Positions 1-18,847 of a DNA stretch of 64,000 nt are shown here, one piece after another. This stretch comes from Actinocorallia herbida. Its GTDB lineage: Bacteria > Actinomycetota > Actinomycetes > Streptosporangiales > Streptosporangiaceae. Both the position numbers and the translations under genes were made by a program. A model generated the notes under the pieces. That model was not told where the DNA came from and did no database searches. It saw only the letters and a list, made by a program, of their open reading frames with translations. The stretch lies in the NCBI RefSeq assembly GCF_003751225.1, contig NZ_RJKE01000001.1, positions 9,238,001 to 9,302,000 of the forward strand. The letters are read 5' to 3'. Positions within the stretch are counted from its first letter, which is position 1; each line of letters opens with the position of its first letter.

Positions 1-670
1 CCTCGGGTTCGAGCGTCCCGGCCAGCACCCGCGTGCGCGGACCCGTTCCGCCGGGCCGGGGCCTGCCGAACGCGGGCGGCGCCGCACCCGCCAGGCGGTC
101 GGCCCAGAACTCCGCGGCCCGGTGCCCCTTCCCGCCGGGCGCCCACACGGCGGGGTCGGCCGCGAGGGCCGCCCGGTGCCGGAGGTGCTCGGTGAACAGC
201 CCCGGGACGGCCAGACGGACCGGCCGTCCCGCGGTGAGTCCGGCATAGGCGGTGACGAGGTCGCCGACGACGATCTCCATGGAGGTGTAGTCGGCGACGG
301 CGTGCGGCAGCGCCAGGTGCACGGCCGCCCGGTCCCGCGAGGCGGTGACGGCGTCGACCCGGAAGACCGGGAGACGGGCCGGGTCGAGCGGCCGCCCGGC
401 CCGTTCGTCCAGCGTCGCGAGGAGCCCTCCCCGGCCCGCCTCGCACACCGCGAAGCACACCGCGCCGGGCGTGTACGGGTGGACGGTCTGGCGGTCGGCG
501 TCCAGGTCGACGGTCGTGCGCGTCGCCTCATGGGCGCGGCAGACCGCCTCCGCCGCATCCCGCAGCGCGGCGGGGTCGAGCGGCCCGGCGAAGACGAGCA
601 CCGCCTCGGTGATGATCCCGGGGTCGGCGACGCGGCGCTGGACGAGCGGGACCGGCAGCCCGTCGGGCAC
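1..670 (-). CDS. Condensation-domain acyltransferase (C-terminus outside window)
   Basis: This is the last visible gene of the leftward biosynthetic operon. It reads from a GTG at 670, five bases after the methyltransferase stop, and stays open to the window edge (223 residues visible). Residues 123-127 read HAVAD inside LPHAVADYTS. This matches the HxxxD catalytic motif of the condensation / wax-ester-synthase / PapA acyltransferase superfamily, at the usual distance from the N-terminus. The family joins a thioester-bound acyl group to an amine or alcohol, so here it could attach the lipid chain to an amino partner (inference). There is no ATG start and the C-terminal half is missing, so the exact subfamily cannot be told. 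Confidence 0.75.
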   Translation of the reverse strand, partial: MPDGLPVPLVQRRVADPGIITEAVLVFAGPLDPAALRDAAEAVCRAHEATRTTVDLDADRQTVHPYTPGAVCFAVCEAGRGGLLATLDERAGRPLDPARLPVFRVDAVTASRDRAAVHLALPHAVADYTSMEIVVGDLVTAYAGLTAGRPVRLAVPGLFTEHLRHRAALAADPAVWAPGGKGHRAAEFWADRLAGAAPPAFGRPRPGGTGPRTRVLAGTLEPE

Positions 671-675
671 CGTGC

Positions 676-1560
676 TCAGACCCGCTCGAAGATGATCCGG
701 GCGAGGCCGAGGCTGCGCCGCTCGAACTGGCGGGCCGAGGACTCCAGGTAGTGCAGGTAGTCCGAGACGACCTCGGCGCCGACGACGGACTCGGCCTCCT
801 CCTTGCGTTCACGCAGGGTGTCGGCCCAGGTCAGGCAGGTCCGGACGTAATGGTCGGGATCATTGCGGACGGTGACGACGTCGAAGGTGTTCTCGCTCGC
901 CTCGATGATGTCGCTCATCGGCGGCATCACCGACTCGGGGAAGATCTTCTCGATCACGAACAGCATCTCCCGCACCGTCTGCCGGTCCAGGGGCCGGGCC
1001 CGGCCCGCGATGTTGGTCTGGAGGGCGAGCCTGCCGCCGGGCTGGAGCCAGTCGCGGCAGCGGCCGAAGAACGTCCGGTAGGCCATGAGTCGTTTCTCGC
1101 GGCTCATCCCGTGCTGCGCGAAATGCTCGAACGCGCCGAGCGAGATGATCGCGTCGTAGCCTTCGGCCTCGTGGTCGGCCCAGTTCTGCACCCGCACGTC
1201 GTAGCGGTCGTCGGCCCACCGGCCGATCGACTCCGCCTGGGACGGGCTGAGCGTCAGCCCGACCACCCGCGCCACGTTCTGCCGCTCGACCAGGTGCCGC
1301 AGCATGCCGCCCCAGCCGCAGCCGATGTCGAGGACACGGGCGGCGCCGGTCGCGCGGGCACCGGTCGCCATGTAGTCGAGCTTGCGCTGCTGGGCGGCGA
1401 AGAGGGTGTCGTCGTCGCCGTCCCACAGGGCGCACGAGTAGGTGCGGCTCTCGTCGAGCCACAGCTCGAAGAAGGCGTTCCCCAGGTCGTAGTGGTGTTC
1501 GATCGCCGGTGCTGAAGCGCCCATGTAGGCGGGCTTGGACACCGATTCCGAAAGGGTCAT
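676..1560 (-). CDS. CFA-synthase-like SAM-dependent methyltransferase
   Basis: The gene encodes 294 residues, starting at ATG 1560 (MTLSES). Residues 21-31 (EHHYDLGNAFF) are the cyclopropane-fatty-acid synthase hallmark. Residues 76-86 (VLDIGCGWGGM) are the SAM-binding glycine motif. The protein is shorter than E. coli Cfa (about 380 residues) and lacks its N-terminal lipid-binding region, as do mycolic-acid-type methyltransferases. The family transfers a methyl group to a lipid double bond, giving a cyclopropane or a methyl branch. The desaturase gene two places upstream could supply that double bond. It lies 11 nt after the FAAL stop in the same operon. The family is clear; the substrate is inferred. 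Confidence 0.85.
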   Translation of the reverse strand: MTLSESVSKPAYMGASAPAIEHHYDLGNAFFELWLDESRTYSCALWDGDDDTLFAAQQRKLDYMATGARATGAARVLDIGCGWGGMLRHLVERQNVARVVGLTLSPSQAESIGRWADDRYDVRVQNWADHEAEGYDAIISLGAFEHFAQHGMSREKRLMAYRTFFGRCRDWLQPGGRLALQTNIAGRARPLDRQTVREMLFVIEKIFPESVMPPMSDIIEASENTFDVVTVRNDPDHYVRTCLTWADTLRERKEEAESVVGAEVVSDYLHYLESSARQFERRSLGLARIIFERV

Positions 1561-1571
1561 GTCGTCTCCGT

Positions 1572-3206
1572 TCAGGTTGCGAGGGGCACCGTGGCGATGG
1601 CCGGGAGGGCCTCCGCCAGCAGGAGCCGGCGGGCCCGGTGACGCTGGACCTTGCCGCTCGGTGTCTTGGGAAGCGAGCCGCGCCGCAGGAACACGCAGGC
1701 GTCCAGGACGAGGCCGCAGCGCGCCGAGGCGATCCGGGCCGCCTCGCGGGCGGTGTCCGCGACCTCGGACGGGGCGGCGCCGGCCCTGCTGAGCTCGGCG
1801 ACGAGCACGAGGCGGCCCGCGGGGCCTTCCGAGCCGAGGTCGAGGACGGCGGCGCAGCCCCGGTGGACCAGGTCCATCGCCTCGATCTCCCGCTCGGCCT
1901 CGCGGGTGCTGACGTTCCGGCCGCCGAAGGAGATCACCTCGTCCAGGCGCCCGACGGGGAAGACCTCGCCGTCGTGCAGGAAGCCGAGGTCTCCGGTGCG
2001 GAAGCCCGCCGAGGTGAAACGGGCCGCCGTGAGCTCGGGATCGCCCTGGTAGCCGAGCGCGAGGCTCGGCGACTTCACGACGAGTTCGCCCACCCCCGAA
2101 GGAACGGTGGAGGAGATCCCGACGTCCTTGCACGGCGGTCCGCAGCCGACGAGCCAGGTCGCCTCCGGCGCGTCGGGGCTGACGTGCGACACCCGGCCGT
2201 GCGCCAGTTCGAAGCCGTCCACCGAGGTGAACCGGGGCGTCGTCCGCGGGGTGGACGCCGACACCGCGAGCGTCGCCTCGGCCATGCCGTAAGCGGGCAT
2301 GAACGACTCCAGGGGGAGCCCGTCGAAGGCCGCCGAGGCCGCGAGCAGCGCCGCCCGCTCCACCCGCTCGGCGCCGATGATCGCGGTCCGCACCTCGAGG
2401 CGGTGATTCAGCGGCCTGCCGTGCTGCGCCCGCGCCGCGAGGAACAGGGCGGTGTTGGTGCCCGCGGTCATCGTGCCGCCGAACTCCGCGAGGTCGGCGA
2501 ACCAGGAGCGCCCGCCGAACATGAAGCGCTCGGGCGTCGACATGACCAGCGGCATGTCGAAGAACCAGGGGAACAGCGTGCAGCCGAACATCCCCATGTC
2601 GTGGGAGAGCGGCAGCCACGACACCACGCGCTCCCGGGCCGGGTCGGCGTCGCTCATGTCGCGGATCAGCTCGAGCTGCGCCGCGATCGCGCGGGGAGTG
2701 AGGACGCAGCCTTTGGGCGTGCCCGTGCTGCCGGAGGAGTACTGGATGAACGCGGGCTCGTCCTCGCCGGGCGGGCACGCCTCGATCGCGGGACCTTCCC
2801 CGATCGACTCCCACTCCCGGCAGGCGATCCCGCCGAGCGCCCCCTCGGGCAGCGCCTGGAGCAGCGCGCCGTCGGTGAGCAGCAGCCGGGCCCCGGCCGA
2901 ACGGCAGATCGCCGCGATCTGCGCGAGGTACTCGTCGACGCCCATGCCCCGGGCCGGGACGGGCAGCGACGCGACCGCGCCGCCCGCCAGCCAGATGGCG
3001 AGGACACCGCGCACCGCCGCCGGGGTGTTGGTCATGATCGCCGCGACGGTCGTGCCCGGCCTGACGCCGAGGCCGCGCAGTCCCGCGGCCGTGCGGCGGG
3101 CGTCGGCGCCGACCTCCGCCCAGGTGGCGGCGGCGAACCCGTGCCCGGTCCAGCAGTGGACAGTGCTTCGCCGGGCGCCCAGCAGCGCCGTCCAGAGCGA
3201 ATCCAT
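1572..3206 (-). CDS. Fatty-acyl-AMP ligase (FAAL)-type adenylating enzyme
   Basis: The protein has 544 residues (ATG 3206, MDSLW). Residues 155-165 (YSSGSTGTPKG) are the phosphate-binding loop. Further on are PAYGMAEATL and a GDLGFLHDG/GRNV region. The YSSGST form of the loop and the MAEATL motif are more typical of FAALs than of acyl-CoA ligases. The near-terminal LPKTPSGKVQR carries the A10-type lysine. FAALs activate a free fatty acid as the adenylate and pass it to an acyl carrier protein rather than to CoA. Two ACP genes lie in the same operon, and the adjacent desaturase resembles the FAAL-desaturase-ACP trios of alkyne and polyyne pathways (known; analogy inferred). It lies 8 nt after the desaturase gene. 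Confidence 0.85.
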   Translation of the reverse strand: MDSLWTALLGARRSTVHCWTGHGFAAATWAEVGADARRTAAGLRGLGVRPGTTVAAIMTNTPAAVRGVLAIWLAGGAVASLPVPARGMGVDEYLAQIAAICRSAGARLLLTDGALLQALPEGALGGIACREWESIGEGPAIEACPPGEDEPAFIQYSSGSTGTPKGCVLTPRAIAAQLELIRDMSDADPARERVVSWLPLSHDMGMFGCTLFPWFFDMPLVMSTPERFMFGGRSWFADLAEFGGTMTAGTNTALFLAARAQHGRPLNHRLEVRTAIIGAERVERAALLAASAAFDGLPLESFMPAYGMAEATLAVSASTPRTTPRFTSVDGFELAHGRVSHVSPDAPEATWLVGCGPPCKDVGISSTVPSGVGELVVKSPSLALGYQGDPELTAARFTSAGFRTGDLGFLHDGEVFPVGRLDEVISFGGRNVSTREAEREIEAMDLVHRGCAAVLDLGSEGPAGRLVLVAELSRAGAAPSEVADTAREAARIASARCGLVLDACVFLRRGSLPKTPSGKVQRHRARRLLLAEALPAIATVPLAT

Positions 3207-3214
3207 GGGGCTCC

Positions 3215-4213
3215 CTATTCGATGTCTGCCGCGTCCGCGGCGGGCCTGCGGCCCCGGCGGGGCATCTCCGCGAGCGGTACCGGCGGCTCGTTGCGCGCGT
3301 GCCTGCCGCCGCCGATCCTCGCCAGCCCGGCCGCGCGCTGGTCCTGGCGGTCCTTGTCGATCTCGATGACGTCCCACACCAGGCCGAGCGCCGCCAGGCC
3401 CTTGATGAGCCAGGCGCTCGGGTCGATCTCGTACCAGCGCATCCCGTGCCCTGCGGCGCGCGGGAAGGCGTGGTGGTTGTTGTGCCAGGAGTCGCCGAAC
3501 GACGGCACGGCGAGCCAGCCGATGTTGCGCGACTCGTCGGGCGTGCTGAAGCGGCGGCGGCCGTGGAAGTGGCCGAGCGAGTTGACGGCGTAGGTGAAGT
3601 GGCTCAGCAGGAACAGCCGGACGAGGCCGCCCCACACGAACCCGGTGAGCGCCGCCATCGGCTCGCCCCCGCTCACCGCGAAGCCGATGAGGGCGGGGGC
3701 CGCGAGGCCCGCGACGACGATGCCGACGAAGTGCTCGCTGATCCAGCGCAGGTGCCGGTCGCGGACGAGGTCGGGGCAGTACCGGACGGGGTCGGAGGTC
3801 AGCTCCTCGTCGAACAGCCAGCCCAGATGGGCGTGCCACAGGCCCTTCAGGATCGCGCGGCGGCTGCCCTCGCCGCCCGCGTAGGGGCTGTGCGGGTCGC
3901 CGTCCCGGTCGGCGACGCGGTGATGGCGGCGGTGGTGGGCGGCCCAGATGATCGCCGGACCCTGTCCCGCGATCGTCCCGGCCACCGCGAGCACGTCCTG
4001 GACGGCCCGGCCGCTCTTGAACGACCGGTGCGACAGCATCCGGTGGAACCCGGTGCTGATCCCGATGCCGCCGATCGCGTACATCACCACGAGGCTGACG
4101 ACGTCGCTCACGCCGAACGCCCGGTTCCACAGCAGCACCATCGCGACGGCGACGCCGAGCAACGGCACGAGGCTCACGGCAAGGATGAACAGGCGGTGCT
4201 GCCTTCCGTCCAC
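3215..4213 (-). CDS. Membrane fatty-acyl desaturase
   Basis: This is a 332-residue polytopic membrane protein from a GTG start at 4213. The three histidine boxes of the acyl desaturase family are intact: HRMLSH at 57-62, HHRRHH at 93-98 and HNNHH at 244-248. They bind the diiron centre that inserts a double bond using O2 and a ferredoxin-type electron donor. A ferredoxin and a Rieske protein are encoded in the divergent operon and could serve as donor (inference). Its place beside a FAAL in an operon with two ACPs suggests an acyl-ACP substrate. Whether it stops at an alkene or goes on to an alkyne cannot be seen from sequence. Confidence 0.9.
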   Translation of the reverse strand: MDGRQHRLFILAVSLVPLLGVAVAMVLLWNRAFGVSDVVSLVVMYAIGGIGISTGFHRMLSHRSFKSGRAVQDVLAVAGTIAGQGPAIIWAAHHRRHHRVADRDGDPHSPYAGGEGSRRAILKGLWHAHLGWLFDEELTSDPVRYCPDLVRDRHLRWISEHFVGIVVAGLAAPALIGFAVSGGEPMAALTGFVWGGLVRLFLLSHFTYAVNSLGHFHGRRRFSTPDESRNIGWLAVPSFGDSWHNNHHAFPRAAGHGMRWYEIDPSAWLIKGLAALGLVWDVIEIDKDRQDQRAAGLARIGGGRHARNEPPVPLAEMPRRGRRPAADAADIE

Positions 4214-4228
4214 GGGTTCCTCCTCAGG

Positions 4229-5608
4229 TCAGGCGGGCGATACGGACGGGGCGGGAGCGGGGCGCAGCGCGTAGAGAGCGGCCCCGGCGACCGCGGTCGC
4301 GAAGGCGGCCGCGCCGCAGAACAGGTAGACGTTCAGGTAGTCGCCGTGCGCGGCGGAGGTCCCGGCCGGGAGGATCACCGCGATGGCCGCGACGCCGAGC
4401 GCGCCGCCGATCTGCCGTGCCGCGGTGTTCAGGCCGACGGCGCCGGCGAACCGCTCGGGCGCCACCGCGAGCGCGGCCGAGCTCGCCACCCCCGTCGCCA
4501 GTGCGCCCATGCCGATGCCGACGAACAGGCCGCTCGGCAGCCAGAACGCCAGGAACTCCGGTTCGGGGGTGAGCGCCAGCCGGATCCAGACGACGGTCGC
4601 CACCATGATCAGCGCACCGCCGATGATCGCGGGCCGGGGCCCGTACCGGCTGATGAACCGCCCCGACAGCAGCGCCGTCACCGACGCGGTCACCGCGCCG
4701 GGGCTCTGCGCGAGGCCGGCCTCCAGGCCGGTGTAGCCCCAGACGTCGGTGAGGTAGAGGATCCCGACGAACAGCCACGGGAAGAGCGCCGTCCCGTAGA
4801 GGAACGTCGCGAGGTTCGTCCAGGCGTACCAGGGGTTGCGCCACAGGCCCGTCTCGATGGCCGGGACGGGGTGCCGGGACGAGCGCCACAGGGCGAGACC
4901 GGTCGAGGCGACGCCGACGGCGAGGACCGCGGCCGTGCGCGCGGAGCCCCAGCCCCACTCCTGGCCGAGGGTCAGGCCGAGGACGAGGCCGCCGACGCCG
5001 ACGCCGAGCAGGGCCGTTCCCGTGAAGTCCGGCCAGCGACCCTTGCCGCGCGCGTCCGCGGGCGAGGCGGCCAGGACGCCGAGGATCAGCAGCAGGCCGA
5101 GCGGGAGGTTGATGAGGAACAGCGCGTGCCAGTCCCACGCCTCGACCAGGAGCCCGCCGCCACTGGGCCCGACGGCCGCCGCGATCGCGCTCGAGGCGCC
5201 CCACAGGCCGATGGCCCCGGCCCGTCGCTCCGGCGGGGTGTTGCGCAGCAGGATCGCCAGCGAGGCCGGCAGCATCGCCGCCGCGCCCGCGCCCTGGACG
5301 GCCCGGCCCGCGAACAGCACGGCGAGCTCGGGGGCGAGCGCGCACCCGACGGACGCCGCGGTGAAGACCGCGGTCCCGGCGACGAAGACGGTACGGGCGC
5401 CGAGGAGGTCGGCGAGGCGGCCGGCCGGGGCGAGCAGCGCCGCGAGGCACACCGCGTAGAGGGTGATGACCCAGGTGAGGTCGGCGGTCTCGGCGGCGGG
5501 GTGGTCGACGGCGAGGTCGGGGATCGCGAGGTTGACGACGGTCGCGTCGAACATCGCGAGGAACGCCGCGCCCGCGGCCGTCAGGGGGATCAGGGCCGAA
5601 CGCCTCAT
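4229..5608 (-). CDS. MFS efflux transporter, DHA2 (EmrB/QacA) type
   Basis: The product has 459 residues and about 14 hydrophobic segments. The opening FDATVVNLAIPDLA matches the D1 motif of 14-TM drug:H+ antiporters of the DHA2 family. The start ATG 5608 overlaps the aminotransferase stop as ATGA, so the two are translationally coupled. Exporters of this family often remove the pathway product from the producing cell, which is the likely role here. No regulator gene is attached to it, so it should be transcribed with the rest of the operon. Confidence 0.9.
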   Translation of the reverse strand: MRRSALIPLTAAGAAFLAMFDATVVNLAIPDLAVDHPAAETADLTWVITLYAVCLAALLAPAGRLADLLGARTVFVAGTAVFTAASVGCALAPELAVLFAGRAVQGAGAAAMLPASLAILLRNTPPERRAGAIGLWGASSAIAAAVGPSGGGLLVEAWDWHALFLINLPLGLLLILGVLAASPADARGKGRWPDFTGTALLGVGVGGLVLGLTLGQEWGWGSARTAAVLAVGVASTGLALWRSSRHPVPAIETGLWRNPWYAWTNLATFLYGTALFPWLFVGILYLTDVWGYTGLEAGLAQSPGAVTASVTALLSGRFISRYGPRPAIIGGALIMVATVVWIRLALTPEPEFLAFWLPSGLFVGIGMGALATGVASSAALAVAPERFAGAVGLNTAARQIGGALGVAAIAVILPAGTSAAHGDYLNVYLFCGAAAFATAVAGAALYALRPAPAPSVSPA

Positions 5609-6837
5609 GGGGCACCCGCCTCGGTGAGCGCGGCGTCCAGCGCGGCGAGCGCCAGGGACGCCTCGGCGTCGGTGGTGGCCAGGGGCGGCAGCAGCCGCAG
5701 GGTGTGCGGGGCGCTCAGGCAGCGCGACACGAGCAGGCCGTGCTGCGGGAGCGCGGCGAGCACCGTGTCGGCGACGTCCGGGCGCAGGTCGAGGCCCCAC
5801 AGCAGGCCCATGCCCCGCACCTCGGTGACGACGCCGGGATGGGCCGAGGCCACCGCGGTGAGGGCGGCGCCGAGTTCCGCGCCGAGGCGGGCACCGCGGT
5901 CGGCGAGCTCGTCGGCGACCGTGAGGGCGGCCAGGCCCGCCGCGCACGCCAGGGGGTTCCCGCCGAACGTCGAGGAGTGCCAGGCCGCCTCGTCGATGAG
6001 CGGGTCGTACAGCTCGGCCGTGGCGACCAGTGCCGACAGCGGCATCACCCCGCCGCCCAGGGCCTTGCCGAAGAGCACGGCGTCGGGCTGCCAGCCGCGG
6101 TCCACCGCGACCGCGAAGGGGCCGCACCGGTAGAGGCCCGTCTGGATCTCGTCGCTGATCACGAACGCGGAGGCCGCGCGGGCGTCGGCCGCCCAGCGGG
6201 CGACGGTCTCGGGGTCCAGCGGCCGGACGCCGCCCTCCCCCTGGACCGGTTCAACGATCAGCGCGGCGACGTCGCCCTGGGCGACCTCGCGTGCGACGGC
6301 CTCCGGGTCGCCGGGGTCGATATGGGTGACGTGGCAGAGCAGCGGTTCGAGGCCCTCCCGGTAGACGGGCGCGTGCGTGAGGGCGAGGGCGCCGAGCGTC
6401 TTCCCGTGGAAGGCGCCGTGCACGGCGAGCACCCGGAGCCGTCCGGTGGCCCGGCGGGCGAGCTTCACCGCGGCCTCGACGGCGTCCGCGCCGTCGCTGC
6501 CCAGCCACACCCGGTCCAGGCCGGGTCCGCAGCGGCGCTGGAGCTCCGCGGCGAAGGCGACGACCGGAGGGCTGGCGAGCGCGCGGGTCGCCGCGGGCAT
6601 CGCGCGGAGCTGCGCGGCGACCGCCTCGACGATCCGGGGTTCCCCGTGGCCGAGGAACGCCACGCCGTAGGAGCCGAAGTCGACGACCTCGCGGCCGTCC
6701 GACAGCCGGACGGTAGCCCCCCTGGCGGTCTCCTCGTGGGCGCCCTGCCCGGCCGCCTGGTAGGCGAGGGCGAGAGCGGGCGGCAGATGGCGGCGCATCG
6801 TGCGGAAGACGGAGCCGCGCGGCGTGACCATGCTCAC
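5605..6837 (-). CDS. Class III PLP-dependent aminotransferase
   Basis: The protein has 410 residues. The GTG start at 6837 overlaps the upstream stop as GTGA; an ATG two codons later at 6831 is an alternative. DEIQTG (229-234) contains the PLP-binding Asp, and FGKALGGG (257-264) holds the Schiff-base lysine K258. SDGADAV near 114 is the phosphate-binding segment. Class III enzymes use omega-amino donors or acceptors such as ornithine, GABA and diamines, and they can aminate an aldehyde or ketone. In this operon it is the most likely source of an amine on the lipid chain (inference). The aldehyde dehydrogenase of the divergent operon handles the same functional group. Confidence 0.9.
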   Translation of the reverse strand: MSMVTPRGSVFRTMRRHLPPALALAYQAAGQGAHEETARGATVRLSDGREVVDFGSYGVAFLGHGEPRIVEAVAAQLRAMPAATRALASPPVVAFAAELQRRCGPGLDRVWLGSDGADAVEAAVKLARRATGRLRVLAVHGAFHGKTLGALALTHAPVYREGLEPLLCHVTHIDPGDPEAVAREVAQGDVAALIVEPVQGEGGVRPLDPETVARWAADARAASAFVISDEIQTGLYRCGPFAVAVDRGWQPDAVLFGKALGGGVMPLSALVATAELYDPLIDEAAWHSSTFGGNPLACAAGLAALTVADELADRGARLGAELGAALTAVASAHPGVVTEVRGMGLLWGLDLRPDVADTVLAALPQHGLLVSRCLSAPHTLRLLPPLATTDAEASLALAALDAALTEAGAP

Positions 6838-8435
6838 GGGTACCAGAGCTCCCCTGCGTCGAGGGCCGCGCGGTAGCGTCGCGCCACCGCCGCCCGGTCG
6901 ATCTTCAACGTCGTGGTCATCAGCCCGTTCTCCCTCGTGAAGTCGTCCCGCGTGAACAGGACCCGCAGGATCCGCCCCGCCTCCGGGACGTCCCGGTTGA
7001 CCTCGGCGACGGCGGCCCGGACCCGGGCGACCGCGGAGTCCCCGGCGTGCGGCCGCAGCGCGACCACCGCCCCGACGTAGGCGAGGTCGCCGCCTCCGAC
7101 GAGGACCGCCTGGGCGACGTCGGCGTCCGCGAGGATCCGCTGCTCCAGCGGTGCCGGAGCGATCTTGTGTCCGGCGCGGGTGATGATGAGGTCCTTCTTG
7201 CGGCCGGTGAGATACAGGAACCCGTCGTCGTCGAGGCGGCCGAGATCGCCTGTGGCGACCGTCCCGTCCTCCAGGTAGGCGGCGCGCTGGACCTCGGGCG
7301 GCTCGCCCAGGTAGCCGGGTGACTGCGGGCGCGGCCAGCGGACCAGGACCTCGCCGTCGTCGGCGATCGAGACCGAACCGGGGAACACCGGGCGGCCGAC
7401 CGAGCCGATCCGGTTGGCGTCCGGGCGGTTCCAGGCGATGAAGCCGGACTCGGTGAGGCCGTAGAGCTGGAAGAGCGGCAGCTCGGCGAGCCCGAACAGC
7501 TCGGCCGTGGAGCGGCGCAGCGGTGCCGATCCGCTCAGCATCAGCCGCATCCGGCCGCCGTAGGCCTCGTGCGCCTTGGCGAACAGCCTGCGCCGCACCG
7601 CGCGGCGCAGCGGGGCCGGCAGCGCGCCCGCCGCCCGCGCGGCCCCCCGGAGCGTGCTCCGGACGGGCGCGGGGAGCGCCGCGAACCTGCTCTCCACCAG
7701 CTCGTAGAAGGCGGGCGGGCCGCCCATGATGGTGGGCCGTGCCTGCTTCAGCACCGCGAACATCAGCGGCGACGGCTCCACCACGACCGCGTCGAAGCCG
7801 TACCAGAACGCGCAGTAGTACATGATCCGCTGCTGGAACGTCGACAGCGGCAGGCAGACCAGGATGCTGTCGTCCGGCCGGAACGCGTGGTGGCGGCCGA
7901 ACTCGGCGAGGCAGTCCTCGGTCGCGCGCCGGTCGATCTGAATCGCCTTGACCGTCCCGGTCGTGCCCGAGGAGAAGACGATGGAGAACACGCCGGGATC
8001 CAGCGGGTCCGCCGCGTCGCGCGGCTCGGCCTTCTCCGTCCCGCCCATCGGGACCATCCAGGACGGACGGGCGGCGTCGCCGTACCGGGCCTCGTCGGCG
8101 ATGAGCAGTTCCAGGCCGAACCGCTCGGCGAGCGCCGCGGGGTCGTGCCCGGCGAGCTCCGCGACCGGCAGGGTGACGGTCACGCAGCCGAGGTCCAGCA
8201 GCGCGAGTTCGTGGACGAGCCACTGATAGGAGTTCGCGCCCCACAGGCCGACCCGCGTCCCCGCCTTGACGCCGACCGCCGACAGGCCGTCCCGGACGCC
8301 GACGACGTCGCGGTGGACCTCCGGGTAGGGACGGCGGACGAGGGTCGTGCCCTCCAGATGGTGCACCGCGGCGTCGGGCAGTTCGGCGAGGCGGGCGACG
8401 AGGCCGGCGAGCCCCGGTCCGTCAGTCGGCGGCAT
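6834..8435 (-). CDS. Second AMP-forming acyl/aryl ligase
   Basis: The protein has 533 residues (ATG 8435). FSSGTTGTVK at 154-163 is the A3 loop, LYGLTESG the A5 motif, ATGDLGRLDDDG the A7 motif and GRKKDLI the hinge. Near the C-terminus TTTLKIDR carries the adenylating lysine. The sequence is closer to long-chain acyl-CoA synthetases than to the FAAL at 1572-3206, so the cluster has two distinct carboxylate-activating enzymes. The start lies inside the ACP gene (14-nt overlap), which makes the pair ACP plus ligase look like a dedicated loading unit. The substrate is unknown. Confidence 0.85.
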   Translation of the reverse strand: MPPTDGPGLAGLVARLAELPDAAVHHLEGTTLVRRPYPEVHRDVVGVRDGLSAVGVKAGTRVGLWGANSYQWLVHELALLDLGCVTVTLPVAELAGHDPAALAERFGLELLIADEARYGDAARPSWMVPMGGTEKAEPRDAADPLDPGVFSIVFSSGTTGTVKAIQIDRRATEDCLAEFGRHHAFRPDDSILVCLPLSTFQQRIMYYCAFWYGFDAVVVEPSPLMFAVLKQARPTIMGGPPAFYELVESRFAALPAPVRSTLRGAARAAGALPAPLRRAVRRRLFAKAHEAYGGRMRLMLSGSAPLRRSTAELFGLAELPLFQLYGLTESGFIAWNRPDANRIGSVGRPVFPGSVSIADDGEVLVRWPRPQSPGYLGEPPEVQRAAYLEDGTVATGDLGRLDDDGFLYLTGRKKDLIITRAGHKIAPAPLEQRILADADVAQAVLVGGGDLAYVGAVVALRPHAGDSAVARVRAAVAEVNRDVPEAGRILRVLFTRDDFTRENGLMTTTLKIDRAAVARRYRAALDAGELWYP

Positions 8436-11526: not shown

Positions 11527-11534
11527 CGGCTCGG

Positions 11535-11807: not shown

Positions 11808-11897
11808 GGCGGCCCCTCCAGATCATCGGCGTGATCACGTCCCGGACGATTGTGCGGCGGTGGCAAGGGGCTGACAAGGCCCCTCCGGCCTCAATGA

Positions 11898-11941: not shown

Positions 11942-11967
11942 ACCTCGCTCATCGAGCATGGATTCCC

Positions 11968-14259
11968 ATGGAGTTGCTGCGATTTCCAGTCGACGATGGA
12001 TCACTCAGCGTCCGCGACATGACCGAGTCCGACATCGACGGTTTCGTTTCCTACTGGCATGACGGGACCGCCGATCTGGAATTTCTCGGAATTGATCCGG
12101 AAAGGCTTGGCACACGCGCCGAGACCCGGGACAGGTTCGTCCGGATGTGCCGGCGGGACGGGCCCCGCGCGGACGTCCTCGGATACACGTTCTGCCTCGA
12201 CGACACGGTCATCGGGTTCACCAACGTCAACATCCTCGGCAGGCCGCGCGGATACATGCACGTCCACCTCACCGACCCGGCCGCGCGCGGTCGCGGCTTC
12301 CTGTCGGAGATCCTCCGGCGGTCGCTGCCGGTGCTGGCCGACCACGTGCTGGCGCGGTACCCGATCGACGGCCTCGTCCTGGAGACCCGCACCCGTAACG
12401 GCGCGATCAACGCGGTCCTGCGCAAGGCGGGGCTCCGGCCCGCGCGGACCGGCCACCTCGCCGACCCCGACGGGCTCGCCGGGCCCGGGGAGTTCGCCGT
12501 CTTCGAGGTCGACGCCGCCCTGATCCGGGAGCTGGTCGGCCGCCCGGCCGCGCCGCCGACCAAGGCGGTCGACGACGAGGTGGAGTACCGGCTGCGCCTC
12601 ATCCGCGACGACGCCCGCCACGACGACGTCGCCGTGGCCGCGGGCCTGGTCGCCGCGGGCTTCGCCGCCCTCGCGCCCGGCGTCTCCCTCCTGGACCCCG
12701 CCGCCGCCGAGGACCTTCTCGACCGCGCAGGGGAGCACCGGTCGACCGTCTACGACCTGTGGTACCGGATGAAGATCCCGTTCGGCGACGCCGACCCCGA
12801 CTCCTGGTACACCATGGCCCTCGCGCTCGGCCGCACCGGCGGCGACGTCGCGTCCGCGGTCCACCTGCACGCGCGCGTCCTGGAGCGCGTCGCCTCCGGC
12901 GAGCCGCCCGCCGCGGTCCTCGGCGAGGAGTTCGGGCTGACGGGCCCGCTGCGCACGGGCGGCTGGGACTCCCTCGCCGACGCCGTCGCCGCCCGCGAGC
13001 CCTTCTGGACCACCGAGTCCAGGCCCTGGCTCGACCGGCTGCACGACCGGGCACTCCGGGCCTGGACCGGCCTGCGCGAGGAGGACCTTCCCCTGCTCGT
13101 GCTGGAACTCCAGCAGCGCATCGAGGGCCTCGAGCAGATCCGGTTCCACCTGGGCGGCGAGCTGCTCGACAACCGCGCCGTCGGCGCCGTCCTCGCCCGC
13201 TGCGCCCGGACCGACCCACGGACCTGGGACGCCGACGCCCTCGCCGTCGCCACGCTGGTGTGGATCTGGCGGGACTCGGGGTTCTGCCTCCAGGAGCTCA
13301 ACCAGTCGGTCATCTCGCTGCCGCAGGTCCTCGGCTTCCTGACCCGCCGCATCCGCGCCTACGCCGAACTCCTCGGCGAGGACCCCGGCGCCGTGCCCGG
13401 CACCCCGGGCGGCGTCGCCCGCCGCCTCGCCGACCTGCGCGGGTCCGTCGAGCGCGACAACCTGCGCTGCCTCCAGTTCGACGGCGGAAACTGGGAGCGG
13501 CGCGAGTTCCTCGTGCCCCGCGCCGCCTGCGCCGAGGTGCTCTCCCTGCCCGCCGACCTGCGCGGCCACCTCCAGGACGAGTTCGGCGGCGCCGTGCCCG
13601 GCGACGGCCCGCAGGCCTGGGCGGCACTCCTCGACCTCGCCGCCGAGGGCGGCCGGACCCCCACCGACATCGTGCGATCGCTCGGCGCGTGGGCGGTCGC
13701 CGACGACGCGCTCCCGGTCGACTACGCGATCTTCACCGTCCCGATGGGGGTGAAGCTGGACCGGCCCTGGGAGTTCGATTACGAGGACGTGTTCTGCTAC
13801 ACCGCGTTCAGCGAGGCGTTCGACCGCGCGGCCGAGGGCGTCCCCTTCGACCACGTCGGCATCGCCAACGCCATCGGGCAGCGGCTGCGCTACAACGTCG
13901 TCAAGAAGGCGCAGAACTACGCGCTCGTCCGGCGGTTCAAGGCCCAGTCGTTCAACCTGCCGGACATCGCCGTCGCCGAGGACGCCAACCACGGCGGCCA
14001 CCGGGCCGCGGGCATCCGGATGAGCTGCCGCATCCCCACCCACATCAAGTACGAGGGCCTGGTCTGGAAGGGCATCGCCGACGTCCGCCTCAACCGCACC
14101 TTCTACCGCCAGCACCTGGAGTTCCGGCCCTCCGACATCCCCGCCGCCTCCCGCCTCGCCACGTGGCTCGGCTGGATCGCCGACGCCGCCTACGCCCGCG
14201 GCCTGCTGTTCGACCCCGTCTACGGCAAGAAGCTCATCCGCGTGGAGGAGACCCTGTGA
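11968..14259 (+). CDS. GNAT acetyltransferase domain fused to a large unrecognised domain
   Basis: The protein has 763 residues. The N-terminal 180 residues look like a GNAT fold (SVRDMTESDIDGF opening, then VIGFTNV and the acetyl-CoA-type loop DPAARGRGFLSEIL). Residues from about 200 to 763 form a long region that I do not recognise; it has no signal peptide or membrane segment. Its last 200 residues are rich in conserved-looking charged and aromatic positions (PWEFDYEDVFCYTAF, AEDANHGGHRAAG). ATG 11968 is preferred over an in-frame GTG at 11905 because the earlier start would put the SARP-like repeats inside the gene and add a non-GNAT leader. It heads the rightward operon. GNAT domains transfer acyl groups from CoA, or aminoacyl groups from tRNA, to amines. 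Confidence 0.7.
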   Translation: MELLRFPVDDGSLSVRDMTESDIDGFVSYWHDGTADLEFLGIDPERLGTRAETRDRFVRMCRRDGPRADVLGYTFCLDDTVIGFTNVNILGRPRGYMHVHLTDPAARGRGFLSEILRRSLPVLADHVLARYPIDGLVLETRTRNGAINAVLRKAGLRPARTGHLADPDGLAGPGEFAVFEVDAALIRELVGRPAAPPTKAVDDEVEYRLRLIRDDARHDDVAVAAGLVAAGFAALAPGVSLLDPAAAEDLLDRAGEHRSTVYDLWYRMKIPFGDADPDSWYTMALALGRTGGDVASAVHLHARVLERVASGEPPAAVLGEEFGLTGPLRTGGWDSLADAVAAREPFWTTESRPWLDRLHDRALRAWTGLREEDLPLLVLELQQRIEGLEQIRFHLGGELLDNRAVGAVLARCARTDPRTWDADALAVATLVWIWRDSGFCLQELNQSVISLPQVLGFLTRRIRAYAELLGEDPGAVPGTPGGVARRLADLRGSVERDNLRCLQFDGGNWERREFLVPRAACAEVLSLPADLRGHLQDEFGGAVPGDGPQAWAALLDLAAEGGRTPTDIVRSLGAWAVADDALPVDYAIFTVPMGVKLDRPWEFDYEDVFCYTAFSEAFDRAAEGVPFDHVGIANAIGQRLRYNVVKKAQNYALVRRFKAQSFNLPDIAVAEDANHGGHRAAGIRMSCRIPTHIKYEGLVWKGIADVRLNRTFYRQHLEFRPSDIPAASRLATWLGWIADAAYARGLLFDPVYGKKLIRVEETL

Positions 14260-14486
14260 ACACGCCCGCACGACTCGCGGACGGCCGGCTCGTGGTGCGG
14301 CACGGCGCCCGCGACTACGTGATCCCGGAGACCTGCCCGCACAAGGGCGCGCCACTCGCCGACGCCTACCTGGCCGGGCCGTTCCTGCGCTGCCCCTGGC
14401 ACGGCGCCACCTTCGACGTCAGGACGGGGCAGCGGCTGCGCGGCCCGGTCTGCCCGAACCTCGCCCCCTCCGAAGGAGACCTCTGA
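14256..14486 (+). CDS. Small Rieske [2Fe-2S] protein
   Basis: The protein has 76 residues and starts at GTG 14256, overlapping the upstream stop as GTGA. CPHKGAPL and CPWHGATFD give the Rieske C-x-H...C-x-x-H ligand set for a [2Fe-2S] cluster, and little else is present. It is at the small end for Rieske ferredoxins (about 100 residues), so it may be a minimal electron carrier. It lies directly before a second iron-sulfur protein. Together they could feed electrons to the diiron oxygenase or the desaturase of the divergent operon (inference). Confidence 0.85.
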   Translation: MNTPARLADGRLVVRHGARDYVIPETCPHKGAPLADAYLAGPFLRCPWHGATFDVRTGQRLRGPVCPNLAPSEGDL

Positions 14487-14740
14487 TGGCCTTCGTGATC
14501 ACCCTTCCGTGCGTCGGCGTCAAGGACGGCGCCTGCGCCGAGGTCTGCCCCGCCGACTGCATCGAGACGACCGACGCCGCCGACCAGTACTTCATCGACC
14601 CCGAGCGCTGCATCGATTGCGATGTGTGCGTCACGGTCTGCCCCGTCGACGCCATCTACCGGGAGACCGAGGTCCCCGAGGAATGGGAGTCCTTCACCGC
14701 TCGGAACGCCGCGTTCTTCACCCCCGAGGAGTCCCAGTGA
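14486..14740 (+). CDS. 7Fe/8Fe ferredoxin
   Basis: The protein has 84 residues, with ATG 14486 inside a TGATG overlap and a GGAG site before it. Two cysteine sets are seen: one in PCVGVKDGACAEVCPADCI and CIDCDVCVTVCP in the second half. The first set has the wider spacing typical of bacterial ferredoxins that hold a 3Fe-4S or 4Fe-4S cluster, and the second is a standard 4Fe-4S motif. It is a soluble low-potential electron carrier. Its place in a biosynthetic operon suggests service to the oxygenase or desaturase rather than to central metabolism. Confidence 0.92.
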   Translation: MAFVITLPCVGVKDGACAEVCPADCIETTDAADQYFIDPERCIDCDVCVTVCPVDAIYRETEVPEEWESFTARNAAFFTPEESQ

Positions 14741-15291
14741 GCACACCCCTGTACCGCCAGGAACTGTCCATCCTCGGCTGGGCCGAGAGCGAGATCGGAC
14801 CGGACGAGAGCCGACTGCGGATCCCGCACGGCCCGCAGCCCCTCACGATGGAGGGCGCCGTCGGCGCCACCGGCCGTCCGCTCATCGGCAACGGCGACAT
14901 CGGCGCGGACGTCATCAGGCTCGCCGCCGGAGCCGGGTTCGCCCCGCACACCCACCCCGGCCACCACGTCCTCACCGTCATCGCGGGCATCGGGACGATC
15001 ACCTACGGCGGACGCGTCCACGAGACCCGGGCCGGGCAGGTCTACCTCATCGAGGGCTCGGTGCCGCACGCCGTCGGCGCCATCACCGACCACCTCATCC
15101 TCGCCGTCGGCGCCCCGCACAAGCCCGTCGACTCCACCGAGCGCATGGAGCTCGTCCCCTATATCGAGGTCCTCGAACCCGACAGGGACATGGACTGCCT
15201 CATCTGCGGGGCGTCCGCCGGGCTGCCCGACCGGCTGCACGACGCGGGTTGCGCGCACTGCCCGTGCGCCGCGTGCGTGGGGATGGCATGA
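14737..15291 (+). CDS. Cupin protein with a C-terminal cysteine cluster
   Basis: The protein has 184 residues, GTG 14737 overlapping the ferredoxin stop. Residues about 60-115 form a cupin barrel: HTHPGHH gives metal-binding histidines and VPHAVG the second motif. After residue 145 there is an unusual tail with seven cysteines (CLICG, then CAHCPCAAC), which looks like a zinc-binding or iron-sulfur site. Such a tail is not part of the ordinary cupin fold. Cupins can be dioxygenases, isomerases or, in some hydrazine pathways, N-N bond-forming enzymes. Which applies here is not shown by the sequence. Confidence 0.8.
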   Translation: MSTPLYRQELSILGWAESEIGPDESRLRIPHGPQPLTMEGAVGATGRPLIGNGDIGADVIRLAAGAGFAPHTHPGHHVLTVIAGIGTITYGGRVHETRAGQVYLIEGSVPHAVGAITDHLILAVGAPHKPVDSTERMELVPYIEVLEPDRDMDCLICGASAGLPDRLHDAGCAHCPCAACVGMA

Positions 15292-16616
15292 CCGGCGACC
15301 TGATCGACCCGCGGACCGGCCTGGTCCGCGGCAGGCTCACCGACTCCGGCGGCGACGCCGCGGCCGTCGTCGCCCGGGCCAGGGCCGCGGCGCCCGCTTG
15401 GGCGGCGTTCACCCCGCGCGACCGGGCACGGCGGCTGCTTGCGCTGGCCGACCGGCTCGACGAGCGGGCCTCCGCCTACGCCGCGGCCGAGGTGGCCGGG
15501 ACCGGCAAGCCCGCGGCCGACGCGCGCGAGGAGGTCGAGCAGGCCGCCGACCTGTTCCGCTTCTACGCGGGCGCCGTCCGGGCCGAACTCGGGCCCGGCG
15601 GCGGGCAGCTCATCGACGGGCACGAGAGCTGGGTCCGCTTCGAACCGCTCGGCGTCGTCGCCGCGATCGTCCCGTGGAACTACCCGCTCATGATGGCGGC
15701 CTGGCGGTGCGCGCCCGCCCTGGCCGCGGGCAACACCGTCGTCCTCAAGCCCGCCGAGACCACCCCCGACACCGCCCTGCTCCTCGCCGAGGACGCCGCG
15801 ATCCTGCTGGGGCCCGGTGTGCTCCAGACCCTCACCGGGGGGCGGGAGTGCGGCACCCGCCTCGTCGAGGCCGAGGTGGACGCCGTCGCGTTCACCGGCA
15901 GCGGCGCCGGAGGGCTCGACGTGGCGCGGCGGGCCGGGACCCGCCGGATCAGCCTCGAACTCGGCGGGAACTGCCCGGTCCTCGTCCTGCCCGACGCGCC
16001 GGAGCGCACCTGGGCGGACCTCGCCGACGCCGCCACCTACAACGCGGGGCAGAGCTGCGCCGCGCCCGCCCGCGTCATCGCGGTCGGCTCCGCCTACGCC
16101 ACGGCGGTCGCCAAGCTCGGCGCGGCCCTGGCCGGACGGACCGCGGGCCGCGACTTCGGACCGCTCAACAACGCCGCCCAGGCCGAGCGCTACGACCGGC
16201 TCGTCGACGGGGCCAAGGCCGAGGTCCGCACGGCCGGGGCGGTCGAGGCCGACGGCGGCTACTTCCGGCCCGCGTGCCTGCTCGCCGGGCTGCCCGACGA
16301 CGACCCCGCCGTCACCGAGGAGGTCTTCGGGCCCGTCCTCACCGTCCAGCCCGCCCGCGACCTCGACGAGGCGCTCCGGCTGGCCGGATCGGTGCCGCAG
16401 GCGCTCGCGGCCAGCGTGTGGACGGCCGCCCTGGACACCGCGCTGCACGCCGCGCGGCGCCTGGACGCGGGCGAGACCTGGGTCAACTGCCATCTCGTGC
16501 AGACCGCGGAGCTCCCGCACGGCGGGCGCGGCGCGTCCGGGACCGGGACCGACCTGAGCGTGCTGGCGCTCGCCGAGTACCGCAGGCCCAAGACCGTCAC
16601 CGTGAACCTGCGCTGA
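15288..16616 (+). CDS. Aldehyde dehydrogenase
   Basis: The protein has 442 residues and starts at ATG 15288 (ATGA overlap with the cupin). PWNYPL near 129, the FTGSG cofactor loop at 202-206, the general base E224 in LELGG and the nucleophile C257 in GQSCAAP are all present. It is about 40 residues shorter than a typical betaine-aldehyde dehydrogenase. It oxidises an aldehyde to an acid with NAD(P)+, or could work on an aldehyde intermediate shared with the class III aminotransferase. Its last 20 bases overlap the end of the convergent SARP gene. Confidence 0.9.
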   Translation: MTGDLIDPRTGLVRGRLTDSGGDAAAVVARARAAAPAWAAFTPRDRARRLLALADRLDERASAYAAAEVAGTGKPAADAREEVEQAADLFRFYAGAVRAELGPGGGQLIDGHESWVRFEPLGVVAAIVPWNYPLMMAAWRCAPALAAGNTVVLKPAETTPDTALLLAEDAAILLGPGVLQTLTGGRECGTRLVEAEVDAVAFTGSGAGGLDVARRAGTRRISLELGGNCPVLVLPDAPERTWADLADAATYNAGQSCAAPARVIAVGSAYATAVAKLGAALAGRTAGRDFGPLNNAAQAERYDRLVDGAKAEVRTAGAVEADGGYFRPACLLAGLPDDDPAVTEEVFGPVLTVQPARDLDEALRLAGSVPQALAASVWTAALDTALHAARRLDAGETWVNCHLVQTAELPHGGRGASGTGTDLSVLALAEYRRPKTVTVNLR

Positions 16617-17355
16617 GCGCCGCGTCGCCGCACAGGATCCTGCCGTGCAGGGACTGGAGGTCGCAGCCGGGCTCCAGCCCGATCGTGTCGACGAGCAGCT
16701 GCCGGAACTCGCGGTAGGCCGAGAGCGCCTCGGCCTGCCGGCCGTCCCGGTACAGCGCGACCATGAGGCTCTGCCACAGCCGCTCGCGCAGCGGCTCAAG
16801 GCCGAGCGCGACCCGGAGGTGGTCGATCGCCTCGCGGTGGCGGCCCAAGCGCACGCACAGGTCGGCGATGTCCTGGATCGCCGCGAGGCGCTTCTCGCGC
16901 AGGCGCGTCGCGGCGTCCCGCAGCGGTCCGCCCTCGAAGACCAGGTCCTGGAGCGCCTCGCCGCGCCACATCCCGAGCGCGTCCTCGAGCAGGACGGCGC
17001 GCTCCGCGTCGCAGCCCACCCGCGCCGACGCCCGCAGCATCGCCTCGAACCGCAGGATGTCCACCAGCTCGGGGCGCACCGACAACCGGTAGCCGCGCGG
17101 CACGGTCTCGATCTCGCACTCGGCGGCGGCCACCGCGCGGCGCACCGCCGACACGTACGTCTTCAGGTTCCCCTTGGCGAACTGAGGGGGGACGACGGGC
17201 CACATGCCGTCCACGAGCTGGTCCACCGAGACCGCCTGGTTGGCCCGCAGCAGCAGCATGCCCACGAGCTGGCGGTGCTTGGCGCGGGTCAGTTCGACGG
17301 ACCGGCCGACCTGGTCGAGCACCTCGAGATTACCTAGCAGAAGGAAGCGCATCAT
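16597..17355 (-). CDS. SARP-family transcriptional activator
   Basis: The protein has 252 residues (ATG 17355). An OmpR-like winged-helix DNA-binding domain covers the first 95 residues (RAKHRQLVGMLLLRANQAV; LKTYVSAVRRAV). It is followed by a bacterial transcriptional activator domain with helical repeats to the C-terminus. This is the size and layout of small SARPs such as DnrI and RedD, which switch on antibiotic clusters by binding 11-bp-spaced direct repeats. It is the obvious cluster-specific activator and the likely reader of the repeats at 11898-11941. It lies 40 nt after the SHMT gene on the same strand. Confidence 0.93.
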   Translation of the reverse strand: MMRFLLLGNLEVLDQVGRSVELTRAKHRQLVGMLLLRANQAVSVDQLVDGMWPVVPPQFAKGNLKTYVSAVRRAVAAAECEIETVPRGYRLSVRPELVDILRFEAMLRASARVGCDAERAVLLEDALGMWRGEALQDLVFEGGPLRDAATRLREKRLAAIQDIADLCVRLGRHREAIDHLRVALGLEPLRERLWQSLMVALYRDGRQAEALSAYREFRQLLVDTIGLEPGCDLQSLHGRILCGDAALSAGSR

Positions 17356-17395
17356 GCTCTCCGTCGGGTGCCGTCGAGGTGGTCCCCCGGCCGGG

Positions 17396-18847
17396 TCAGG
17401 GCAGGTCGATCTCCGGGTACAGGGGATTCTTCGCCAGCATCTCGGCGGCGCGCCCGCTGATGTGCTCGGCGAGGCCGTCCTTCAGGCGGTAGAGCGCCTG
17501 GGACGGGCGGCCGTCCTTGCCCGGCGCGGGCTCCGTGCCGTGCAGGACCTGGTCGATGAGCTCGGCGATCTCGTCCATCTCGGCGGTGCCGAAGCCGCGG
17601 GTGGTGAGGGCGGGTGTGCCGATCCGCACGCCGCTGGTGTACCAGGCGCCGTTGGGGTCGCGCGGGATCGCGTTGCGGTTGGTGACGATCCCCGCGTCGA
17701 GCAGGGCCGACTCGGCCTGGCGTCCGGTGAGGCCGTACCGGGAGACGTCGATGATCACCAGGTGGTTGTCGGTCCCTCCGGTGACGAGCGTCGCCGACCG
17801 GCGCAGCAGGCCCTCGGCCAGGGCCCGGGAGTTGTCCACGACGCGCGCGGCGTAGTCGCGGAACTCCGGCCGCCGGGCCTCGCCCAGCGCGATGGCCTTG
17901 GCGGCCATCACGTGCGGCAGCGGGCCGCCGAGCACCAGCGGGCAGCCCCGGTCGACGCTGTCGGCGAACTCGTCGTCGCACAGGACCATGCCGCCGCGCG
18001 GGCCGCGCAGGGACTTGTGCGTCGTCGTGGTGACGATCTGGGCATGCGGGACCGGGTCGAAGTCCCCGGTCAGCACCCGTCCCGCGACGAGTCCGGCGAA
18101 GTGCGCCATGTCCACCATCAGGGTCGCGCCGACCTCGTCGGCGATCTCCCGCATGATCCGGAAGTTCACCAGCCTCGGGTAGGCGGAGTACCCGGCGACC
18201 AGGATGAGCGGCCGGAACTCGCGGGCCGCCTCCCGGACCGCCGCGTAGTCCAGCAGGCCCGTCGCCGGGTCGGTACCGTAGCTGCGCTGGTCGAACATCT
18301 TGCCCGAGATGTTCGGGCGGAATCCGTGGGTGAGGTGGCCGCCGGCGTCCAGGGACATGCCGAGCATCCGCTGGTCGCCGAGGTCGGCGCGCAGCCGGGC
18401 CCAGTCGGCGTCCCCGAGGTCGTTGACGCCGCGGACGCCCGCCTTGGCCAGTGCCGGGGACTCCACCTTCTGGGCGAGGACCGCCCAGTACGCGACGAGG
18501 TTGGCGTCGATGCCCGAGTGCGGCTGAACGTAGGCGTGCCGGGCGCCGAACAGGTCGCGAGCGTACTCGGCGGCGAGTGCCTCGACGGTGTCCACGTTGC
18601 GGCAGCCCGCATAGAAGCGCCGCCCCGCCGTTCCTTCGGCGTATTTGTCGCTGAGCCAGTTTCCCATCGCCAGCAGAACCGCCGGGGAGGCGTAGTTCTC
18701 ACTCGCGATCAACTTCAGCGACTCGCGCTGGTCGGTCAGTTCCGACGAGATCGCGTCCGCGATTCGCGGGTCGCTCCGCCTGATCACCTCGAGCGCGCTC
18801 TGAAATGCCGCCGAAACCGTACCGTCCTGTGCCCGAATCTCGGTCAT
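17396..18847 (-). CDS. glyA: Serine hydroxymethyltransferase, long form
   Basis: The protein has 483 residues (ATG 18847). [11 protein letters not shown] is the family N-terminal signature and [14 protein letters not shown] holds the PLP lysine K278. It is about 60 residues longer than E. coli GlyA because of an insert at residues 125-165 between the PLP-ring segment and the GGHLTHG motif. The enzyme interconverts serine and glycine, giving methylene-tetrahydrofolate. It is upstream of and codirectional with the SARP gene, so it may supply serine, glycine or one-carbon units to the cluster (inference). It may equally be a housekeeping paralogue with its own operator. Confidence 0.93.

Follow-up and report, generated by a model that had tools for sequence, protein, structure and literature searches.

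We propose that a gene cluster of Actinocorallia herbida, lying at the left end of a 64,000-nucleotide stretch of DNA (the window), probably makes a lipid that contains a nitrogen-nitrogen (N-N) bond. The window covers positions 9,238,001-9,302,000 of a 9.8-Mb single-contig genome (NZ_RJKE01000001.1), and positions given below are window positions. Gene calls from a codon-model gene caller, annotated with Pfam and NCBIfam, place the cluster in two divergent operons. The minus-strand operon encodes, in order, an acyl carrier protein (ACP1), a ferritin-like diiron oxidase/oxygenase (FDO), a thioesterase, an alpha/beta hydrolase, a second carrier protein (ACP2), a second adenylating enzyme (ANL2), an aminotransferase, an MFS exporter, a desaturase, a FAAL-type fatty acyl-AMP ligase, a CMAS-family methyltransferase and a condensation (C) domain protein. 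The plus-strand operon encodes a fusion of a GNAT domain with a putative heme protein, then a Rieske protein, a ferredoxin, a cupin and an aldehyde dehydrogenase (ALDH), and is followed by a SARP-type activator gene on the minus strand. All genes named in the initial annotation of this DNA are present and coding, the thioesterase being recognised by Foldseek of a structure model. That annotation had also seen no N-N gene. Here, the partner of the GNAT domain proves to be a distant relative of the KinJ-type heme hydrazine synthases, and ANL2 and ACP2 resemble a pair that loads hydrazinoacetate. We read the whole locus as one candidate N-N lipid pathway mainly because its lipid and FDO logic is shared with clusters in two other genomes, G236 and G274.

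The fusion protein (746 aa; 12019-14259, plus strand) has its GNAT domain at residues 1-176 (12019-12546; PF13302, E 8e-7) and the putative KinJ-type domain, assigned by homology, residue mapping and a model, at residues 177-746 (12547-14259). The latter region has no match in Pfam, NCBIfam or the PDB. Searches of the PDB with phmmer gave no match for the fusion (E up to 1) or for the GNAT domain alone (0.01), and a heme-domain profile found only weak PDB matches, ribosomal protein eL18 and a designed repeat protein, at E 0.04 and above. KinJ and FzmP bind heme b and, together with a ferredoxin, convert nitrite and L-Asp to L-hydrazinosuccinate, rarely for more than one turnover, and NegJ is cited for glycine (PMC12154649). 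Nine KinJ residues are named in that paper (K356, C468, R497, M498, N501, H504, H541, R551 and R570, with 496 and 550 as alternative numbers for two of the Arg); H541 is a heme-ligand candidate, the Arg trio R497, R551 and R570 is at the heme site, and changes to M498 and H504, which lie near the heme, inactivate the protein (PMC12154649). The paper also reports a distant GAF similarity of KinJ and finds a partner ferredoxin with 3/4Fe-4S clusters in 55% of KinJ-family neighbourhoods, so that this partner is common and not universal; its main text contains none of the terms fatty acid, lipid, GNAT, cupin, Rieske or acyl (PMC12154649).

Relatives of the fusion protein were sought in 345 genomes of the order, including its own (344 others); 20 have a match, and in seven the match is strong (E < 1e-100). 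The remainder comprise five kinamycin-type relatives (G013, E 1e-8; G009, 3e-8; G266, G276 and G273, 1e-5 to 4e-4) and eight further distant relatives (E 2e-11 to 1e-3), with similarity strongest in the C-terminal domain. Sixteen of the 19 non-own matches were examined further, all except G166, G169 and G268. Judged by gene content, the loci of the five have the setting of kinamycin-type clusters: an amidase gene and a glutamine-synthetase-like gene adjoin the distant relative in 5/5, a called ferredoxin gene is beside it in four (not G009), and L055, scanned further, holds flavin aromatic hydroxylases, a polyketide cyclase and an O-methyltransferase. In profile comparison, seven window-type rows matched the five kinamycin-type rows with probability 96 (E 3e-9) and five other relatives with probability 98.8 (E 1e-16). 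All nine KinJ residues are found in every one of the five kinamycin-type rows, including G013, on which the KinJ numbering was anchored by spacing and not on KinJ's own sequence. The window clade keeps six of them, C468, R497, N501, H541, R551 and R570, in 7/7 rows. A ferredoxin gene (84 aa; 14486-14740, plus strand; PF00037) is adjacent to the window heme gene, and the spacing of its eight Cys (9, 17, 21, 25, 42, 45, 48 and 52) is of the 7Fe type. A model of the heme domain reached pLDDT 81.9 and pTM 0.77, and in its Foldseek list a GAF domain came third (E 0.51), with phytochromes also near the top. The window genome has a narG match above cut-off, a possible nitrite source, and also NirB, which would consume nitrite. 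The window protein is best regarded as a divergent KinJ relative that may work like KinJ.

A second line of evidence comes from ANL2 (533 aa; 6834-8435, minus strand; PF00501 and PF23562, AMP-binding_C_3) and ACP2 (77 aa, with LGLDSL; 8422-8655, minus strand; PF00550). Their closest counterparts lie in the clusters of G236 (stretches L113 and L116) and G274 (L114 and L118), which each hold a FAAL-like AMP ligase, an ACP, an MFS protein and an FDO, together with a MetRS-cupin protein, an FAD oxidoreductase, a GNAT, another ACP, an adenylase with AMP-binding_C_3 and a C45-type hydrolase; in L114 and L118, the GNAT and MetRS-cupin genes were scanned with Pfam and the others were matched by BLAST. 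L113 also holds a Lys/Orn N-hydroxylase and an acyl-CoA dehydrogenase. Both clusters contain, in addition, a P450 and a 698-aa protein with a haem-oxygenase-like domain. In the dob pathway, a GNAT succinylates hydrazinoacetate and an adenylase loads it onto a carrier (PMC13061610), and the G236/G274 gene set resembles the dob set described there. ANL2 and the ANL that neighbours the MetRS-cupin protein in L118 are 33% identical across 495 aa (E 1e-62). The ANL2 profile matches the adenylase on the MetRS-cupin side at E 1.2e-53 versus 3.3e-17 for the window's own FAAL family, and the ACP2 profile likewise prefers the MetRS-cupin-side ACP (E 7.6e-7) to the FAAL-side ACP (0.035) of G236/G274. A phmmer search of the PDB with ANL2 at E 1e-20 returned nothing. 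Thus, ANL2 and ACP2 resemble a hydrazinoacetate-loading pair, the pair in L116 and L118 having been identified as such by context and not by comparison with the Tri29, AzaC or DobC sequences themselves.

The FDO (368 aa; 10420-11526, minus strand; AurF-like PF11583, E 5e-11) points to the same two genomes. Its diiron ligands (ExxH, E, ExxH) are present in 20/20 rows, the first Glu (HGEQ) being invariant in 4/4 rows, and its nearest relatives outside the lipid clusters are those of G236 and G274, at 63-64% identity. FDO alone was uninformative as a linkage test since 220/345 genomes match, and a tree with 12 of the top-ranked paralogs was used instead. There, the five lipid-cluster FDOs group with those of L113 and L114 (100/99), apart from the 12 paralogs and from L115. 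The diiron paralogs widespread in the order are around 50% identical to the cluster FDO. We suggest that the G236/G274 cluster is a second candidate N-N lipid pathway, and that a similar lipid scheme, with two carriers and FDO tailoring, follows two different hydrazine-forming systems.

The window cluster is conserved as a unit. Five of the seven genomes with strong matches (the window genome, G230, G272, G237 and G239) have it nearly gene for gene, with best-hit identities of 47-81% between the window cluster and its four syntenic relatives, three of which are Actinomadura (G230, G272 and G237). Recurrence in 4/344 other genomes of the order is more than chance. A search of the phylum gave matches in 2/396 genomes, one being the window's own. 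The divergent arrangement of the two operons is kept in 5/5 genomes. The GNAT fusion, which the annotation had singled out, holds for the window; in the four relatives GNAT is a separate gene, which overlaps the next gene by 4 bases in three of them; in G237 the called overlap is 14 bases. The gene caller missed the Rieske gene of G237, where the reading frame is nevertheless open, and ALDH was not found within the stretch of G239 examined. An apparent decayed copy of the lipid cluster is seen in L109 (G250), with C-domain and SARP pieces as called open reading frames (ORFs) and a cupin match that has an internal stop and overlaps the C-domain piece.

The heme protein also travels with a smaller set of partners, here the Rieske [2Fe-2S] protein (76 aa; 14256-14486; PF00355, E 2e-10), the ferredoxin, the cupin with a Cys-rich tail (184 aa; 14737-15291; PF07883, Cupin_2, E 3e-11) and ALDH (442 aa; 15288-16616; PF00171, E 1e-108), all on the plus strand. 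Scanning a wider genome-contig collection with the single fusion protein gave no match, and an alignment-based scan of the same collection gave 12 loci: three Actinomadura, seven Streptomyces and two from metagenome-assembled genomes (MAGs; G033 and G048). Counted as 14 distinct loci (five lipid, seven Streptomyces and two MAG), the partners are cupin in 14/14, Rieske in 12/14, ferredoxin in 12/14 and ALDH in 10/14 (one truncated). In the stretches examined, the seven Streptomyces loci and the two MAG loci have the heme-cupin module without the lipid genes. The window-type, Streptomyces and MAG heme proteins (13 of the 22 rows in a tree) form one 100/100 clade on a long branch, and nine KinJ-type and other rows fall outside it. 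This tree excludes G246, which was used in alignments, and L068, whose heme gene the gene caller had split in two. The cupin is invariant in HTHPGHH, the second-motif His and the tail CxxC..H..CxHCPCxxC in 14/14 loci. It has a solved full-length relative, 9ug7 (E 3e-74), on which a literature search found no paper. The Streptomyces loci (L061-L063, L065 and L068-L070) encode a haem-oxygenase-like DUF3050 protein in 5/7 and a ligase with ATP-grasp and LAL_C2 domains in 6/7, and their products are perhaps peptide-like N-N compounds. A DUF3050 protein (L051:8595-9389) also directly adjoins the kinamycin-type heme gene of G009, and the DUF3050 family therefore accompanies both branches of the heme family.

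From these data, we can sketch a pathway. In the first step, the KinJ-type heme protein with its ferredoxin would make a hydrazino acid, probably hydrazinoacetate, from nitrite. Glycine as the amino-acid substrate is favoured only by the ANL2/ACP2 match and weakly by the serine hydroxymethyltransferase (SHMT) gene beside two of the five clusters. The fused GNAT would then acylate the hydrazine, and ANL2 would adenylate the (acyl)hydrazino acid and load it onto ACP2. In the fourth step, the FAAL (544 aa; 1572-3206; PF00501, with NCBIfam FAAL models scoring below their cut-offs) would put a fatty acid on ACP1 (90 aa; 11535-11807; PF00550, E 1e-7), the membrane desaturase (332 aa; 3215-4213; PF00487, E 3e-21; His boxes HRMLSH, HHRRHH and HNNHH) would add a double bond, and the CMAS-family SAM methyltransferase (294 aa; 676-1560; PF02353, E 4e-61) a methyl or cyclopropane group. 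The nearest solved structure to the last of these is CmaA2 (1kpi, E 1.4e-39). We dropped cyclopropane as its sole product because a His of CmaA2 is Gln here, as in MmaA4. The C-domain protein (432 aa; PF00668, E 3e-25), which has PHxxxD in the position of the C-domain consensus HHxxxDG, might couple the two carrier-bound halves, probably as a hydrazide. In a sixth step, the diiron enzyme could oxidise either the acyl chain or the N-N unit (to the hydrazone, azo/azoxy or diazo level), with the Rieske protein perhaps as its reductant.

Release would fall to an acyl-ACP thioesterase or to the alpha/beta hydrolase (322 aa; 8688-9656; PF07859, Abhydrolase_3, E 3e-70). The former (256 aa; 9653-10423) has no match in Pfam or NCBIfam; its AlphaFold2 model, from only four sequences, has pLDDT 71.9 (the other four models 50-52), and Foldseek finds the acyl-ACP thioesterases 2own, 4gak and FatA at E about 1e-10 to 1e-9. 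The MFS protein (459 aa; 4229-5608; PF07690; 45% identical to the MFS of the L113 and L114 clusters) would export the product. These genes, from ACP1 to the C domain, are on the minus strand, as is that of the SARP-type protein (252 aa; 16597-17355; PF03704, BTAD, E 4e-37), which is found in 4/4 syntenic relatives and would activate the cluster. Steps 1 and 3 are based on homology with conserved residues or partners, steps 2, 4 and 7 (release, export and activation) on family membership; steps 5 and 6 are conjectural. The aminotransferase, ALDH and cupin stand outside this scheme. The product may be a hydrazide, a hydrazone, an azo lipid or an azoxy lipid. Overall, the data support the initial annotation's picture of a fatty chain that is held on an ACP, desaturated, methylated and given a nitrogen function; an azoxy group may be an oxidation state of the N-N unit, and simple nitro or hydroxylamine lipids look less likely.

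Several observations weigh against this reading. The window protein is only about 25-30% identical to the kinamycin-type proteins, with very long branches, and the best-scoring distant relative, G246, itself lacks several key residues. In 7/7 window-clade rows, M498 is Leu or Gln, H504 is Lys and K356 is Arg, so substrate or chemistry may differ from those of KinJ. Foldseek of the heme-domain model against the PDB found nothing significant (best E 0.29). No ferredoxin accompanies the heme protein and cupin of the two MAG loci in the DNA examined. Cupin and ALDH also occur together in G214 (L110) and G015 (L111) with no recognised hydrazine gene in the stretches examined; their cupins are 44-46% and their ALDHs 63-64% identical, with aminotransferase-like proteins of about 530 aa nearby and a TauD protein in G015. 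As for the loading genes, the window GNAT shows no specific similarity to the GNATs of L116 and L118 (hhalign E 0.59; both PF13302), and the Pfam scan of the cluster genes showed neither the acyl-CoA dehydrogenase nor the C45 peptidase that known hydrazone pathways contain. Regarding the FDO, the seventh His characteristic of ferritin-like N-oxygenases (Dob3 H225; PMC13061610), taken here as four residues before the last ExxH Glu, is Val in the window protein and in all 19 relatives (20/20 rows), so its target may be carbon. FDO relatives occur in 220/345 genomes of the order, a count that takes in the window genome and the other cluster genomes, and the FDO therefore derives from a common paralog. 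Separately, a tRNA-synthetase-like ORF near the G015 cupin proved to be of the Cys type, with no cupin domain.

The alternative that survives best, though we regard it as unlikely, is that the heme protein has drifted to another reaction of nitrite or NO, such as nitrosation, giving an N-nitroso or diazeniumdiolate lipid with the cupin aiding the N-N step. The cupin adjoins the heme protein in 14/14 loci, two KinJ residues near the heme are replaced, and a cupin role in the N-N step has been hypothesised for alanosine (PMC11705231). The fragin (ham) cluster, like the window cluster, has a cupin, an AurF-family enzyme, an aminotransferase and a stand-alone starter C domain (PMC5878181), and a fragin-like diazeniumdiolate was our first idea, demoted to a rival after the KinJ-type match; fragin and alanosine were compared by description and not by gene sequence. 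However, the heme-site Arg trio and His541 are kept, the cupin is also found without the heme gene, ANL2/ACP2 resemble hydrazinoacetate loading, and the fragin cupin HamB is dispensable for the diazeniumdiolate valdiazen (PMC5878181). Fragin also differs in its valine nonribosomal peptide synthetase and heme-oxygenase-like HamA, and no KinJ-type or FAAL gene is in its seven-gene list (PMC5878181).

We give a somewhat lower chance still to a product with no N-N bond, in which the FDO would N-oxygenate an amine installed on the lipid by the aminotransferase (to a hydroxylamine, oxime or nitro group) and the heme protein would have another role. The AurF-family match of the FDO is in keeping with this, as is the PigE-like score (E 6e-73, below cut-off) of the class III aminotransferase (410 aa; 5605-6837, minus strand; PF00202, E 4e-79). 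The Val in place of the N-oxygenase His weakens it, as it does the diiron N-oxygenation put forward in the initial annotation, and the KinJ-type residues, the ferredoxin and the hydrazinoacetate-type ANL2/ACP2 would be left unexplained. Divergent transcription and the modules without lipid genes could mean two neighbouring pathways, a minus-strand lipid operon and a plus-strand N-N operon with a shared regulator and separate products, but we think this very improbable, since the arrangement is kept in 5/5 genomes, the minus-strand operon itself has ANL2/ACP2 with nearest kin seen beside a MetRS-cupin protein, and the FDO's nearest kin lie in those same clusters.

The N-N lipid pathway we favour combines parts of known systems. 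It shares six heme-site residues, an adjacent ferredoxin (as in kin) and a biosynthetic context with KinI/KinJ, FzmP and NegJ of kinamycin, fosfazinomycin and negamycin. Unlike these, the window protein is fused to GNAT, has Rieske and Cys-tail cupin partners, sits in a lipid cluster and belongs to the separate 100/100 clade, and the cluster lacks the amidase and Gln-synthetase-like genes of the 'hydrazino cassette'. The G236/G274 cluster, to our knowledge uncharacterised, is like the window cluster in its FAAL-like ligase, ACP, MFS, FDO (63%) and hydrazinoacetate-type ANL and ACP. In contrast to the window cluster, it has the MetRS-cupin route, an HDO-domain protein, a P450, and GDSL and transglutaminase-like proteins, and in the stretches examined no match to a KinJ-type protein, desaturase or CMAS. 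The hydrazinoacetate pathways of triacsin, azaserine, Dob and N-nitroglycine likewise have a GNAT (Tri31/AzaB/DobB), an adenylase (Tri29/AzaC/DobC) and a dedicated small ACP and, in dob, a ferritin-like diiron enzyme (PMC13061610); they also have a MetRS-cupin synthetase. The window cluster differs in that its hydrazine source would be the KinJ-type relative, not a Lys N-hydroxylase and MetRS-cupin protein; its GNAT is not specifically alike, and FAAL, desaturase, CMAS and C domain are added. Valanimycin and azodyrecin may share an azoxy endpoint (PMC11705231); their N-N formation is of the VlmA/VlmO type and is set apart by description, VlmA and VlmO not having been searched for in the window. 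In searches of the open-licence literature, we found no such cluster and no example of a FAAL with an N-N enzyme in one cluster.

The interval first drawn for the cluster needs adjusting at both ends. The left boundary is the condensation gene (1-670 in the window), which runs off the left edge (-628..670; L011:7372-8670, minus strand), its 5' part lying left of the window. It is present in 4/4 syntenic relatives, in two with orientation opposite to CMAS. The genes next to it on the left in this genome (ADH, two TetR and MFS) are not matched by any gene in the left flanks examined in G230 and G272. On the right, the SHMT gene (17396-18787, minus strand; PF00464, E 3e-121) was rejected as a core gene, as it adjoins the cluster only in the window and G237 (2/5) and is unshared by 3/4 relatives; it may be an optional glycine supply. 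It opens a one-carbon folate group adjoining the cluster (17396-22021), with an unknown 300-aa protein, a formiminotransferase-cyclodeaminase-type protein and a FolD-type protein.

A broader reading, which we hold only tentatively and give rather less than an even chance, is that this deep, separate branch of the KinJ family, with its constant cupin (and usually Rieske) partner, changed active site and own N-N chemistry, is an interchangeable module. It would be placed in a lipid pathway here and in ATP-grasp-ligase pathways in Streptomyces, and would replace the MetRS-cupin route ahead of the same ANL/ACP, FAAL and diiron enzymes. We know of no published example of a lipid N-N class derived from nitrite. 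In any case, a previously unreadable cluster becomes testable, and two cluster families, that of the window and that of G236/G274, would have lipid loading and diiron tailoring in common and differ in the system that forms the hydrazine. If the module proves to be interchangeable, the product would belong to a class of N-N lipids made from nitrite.

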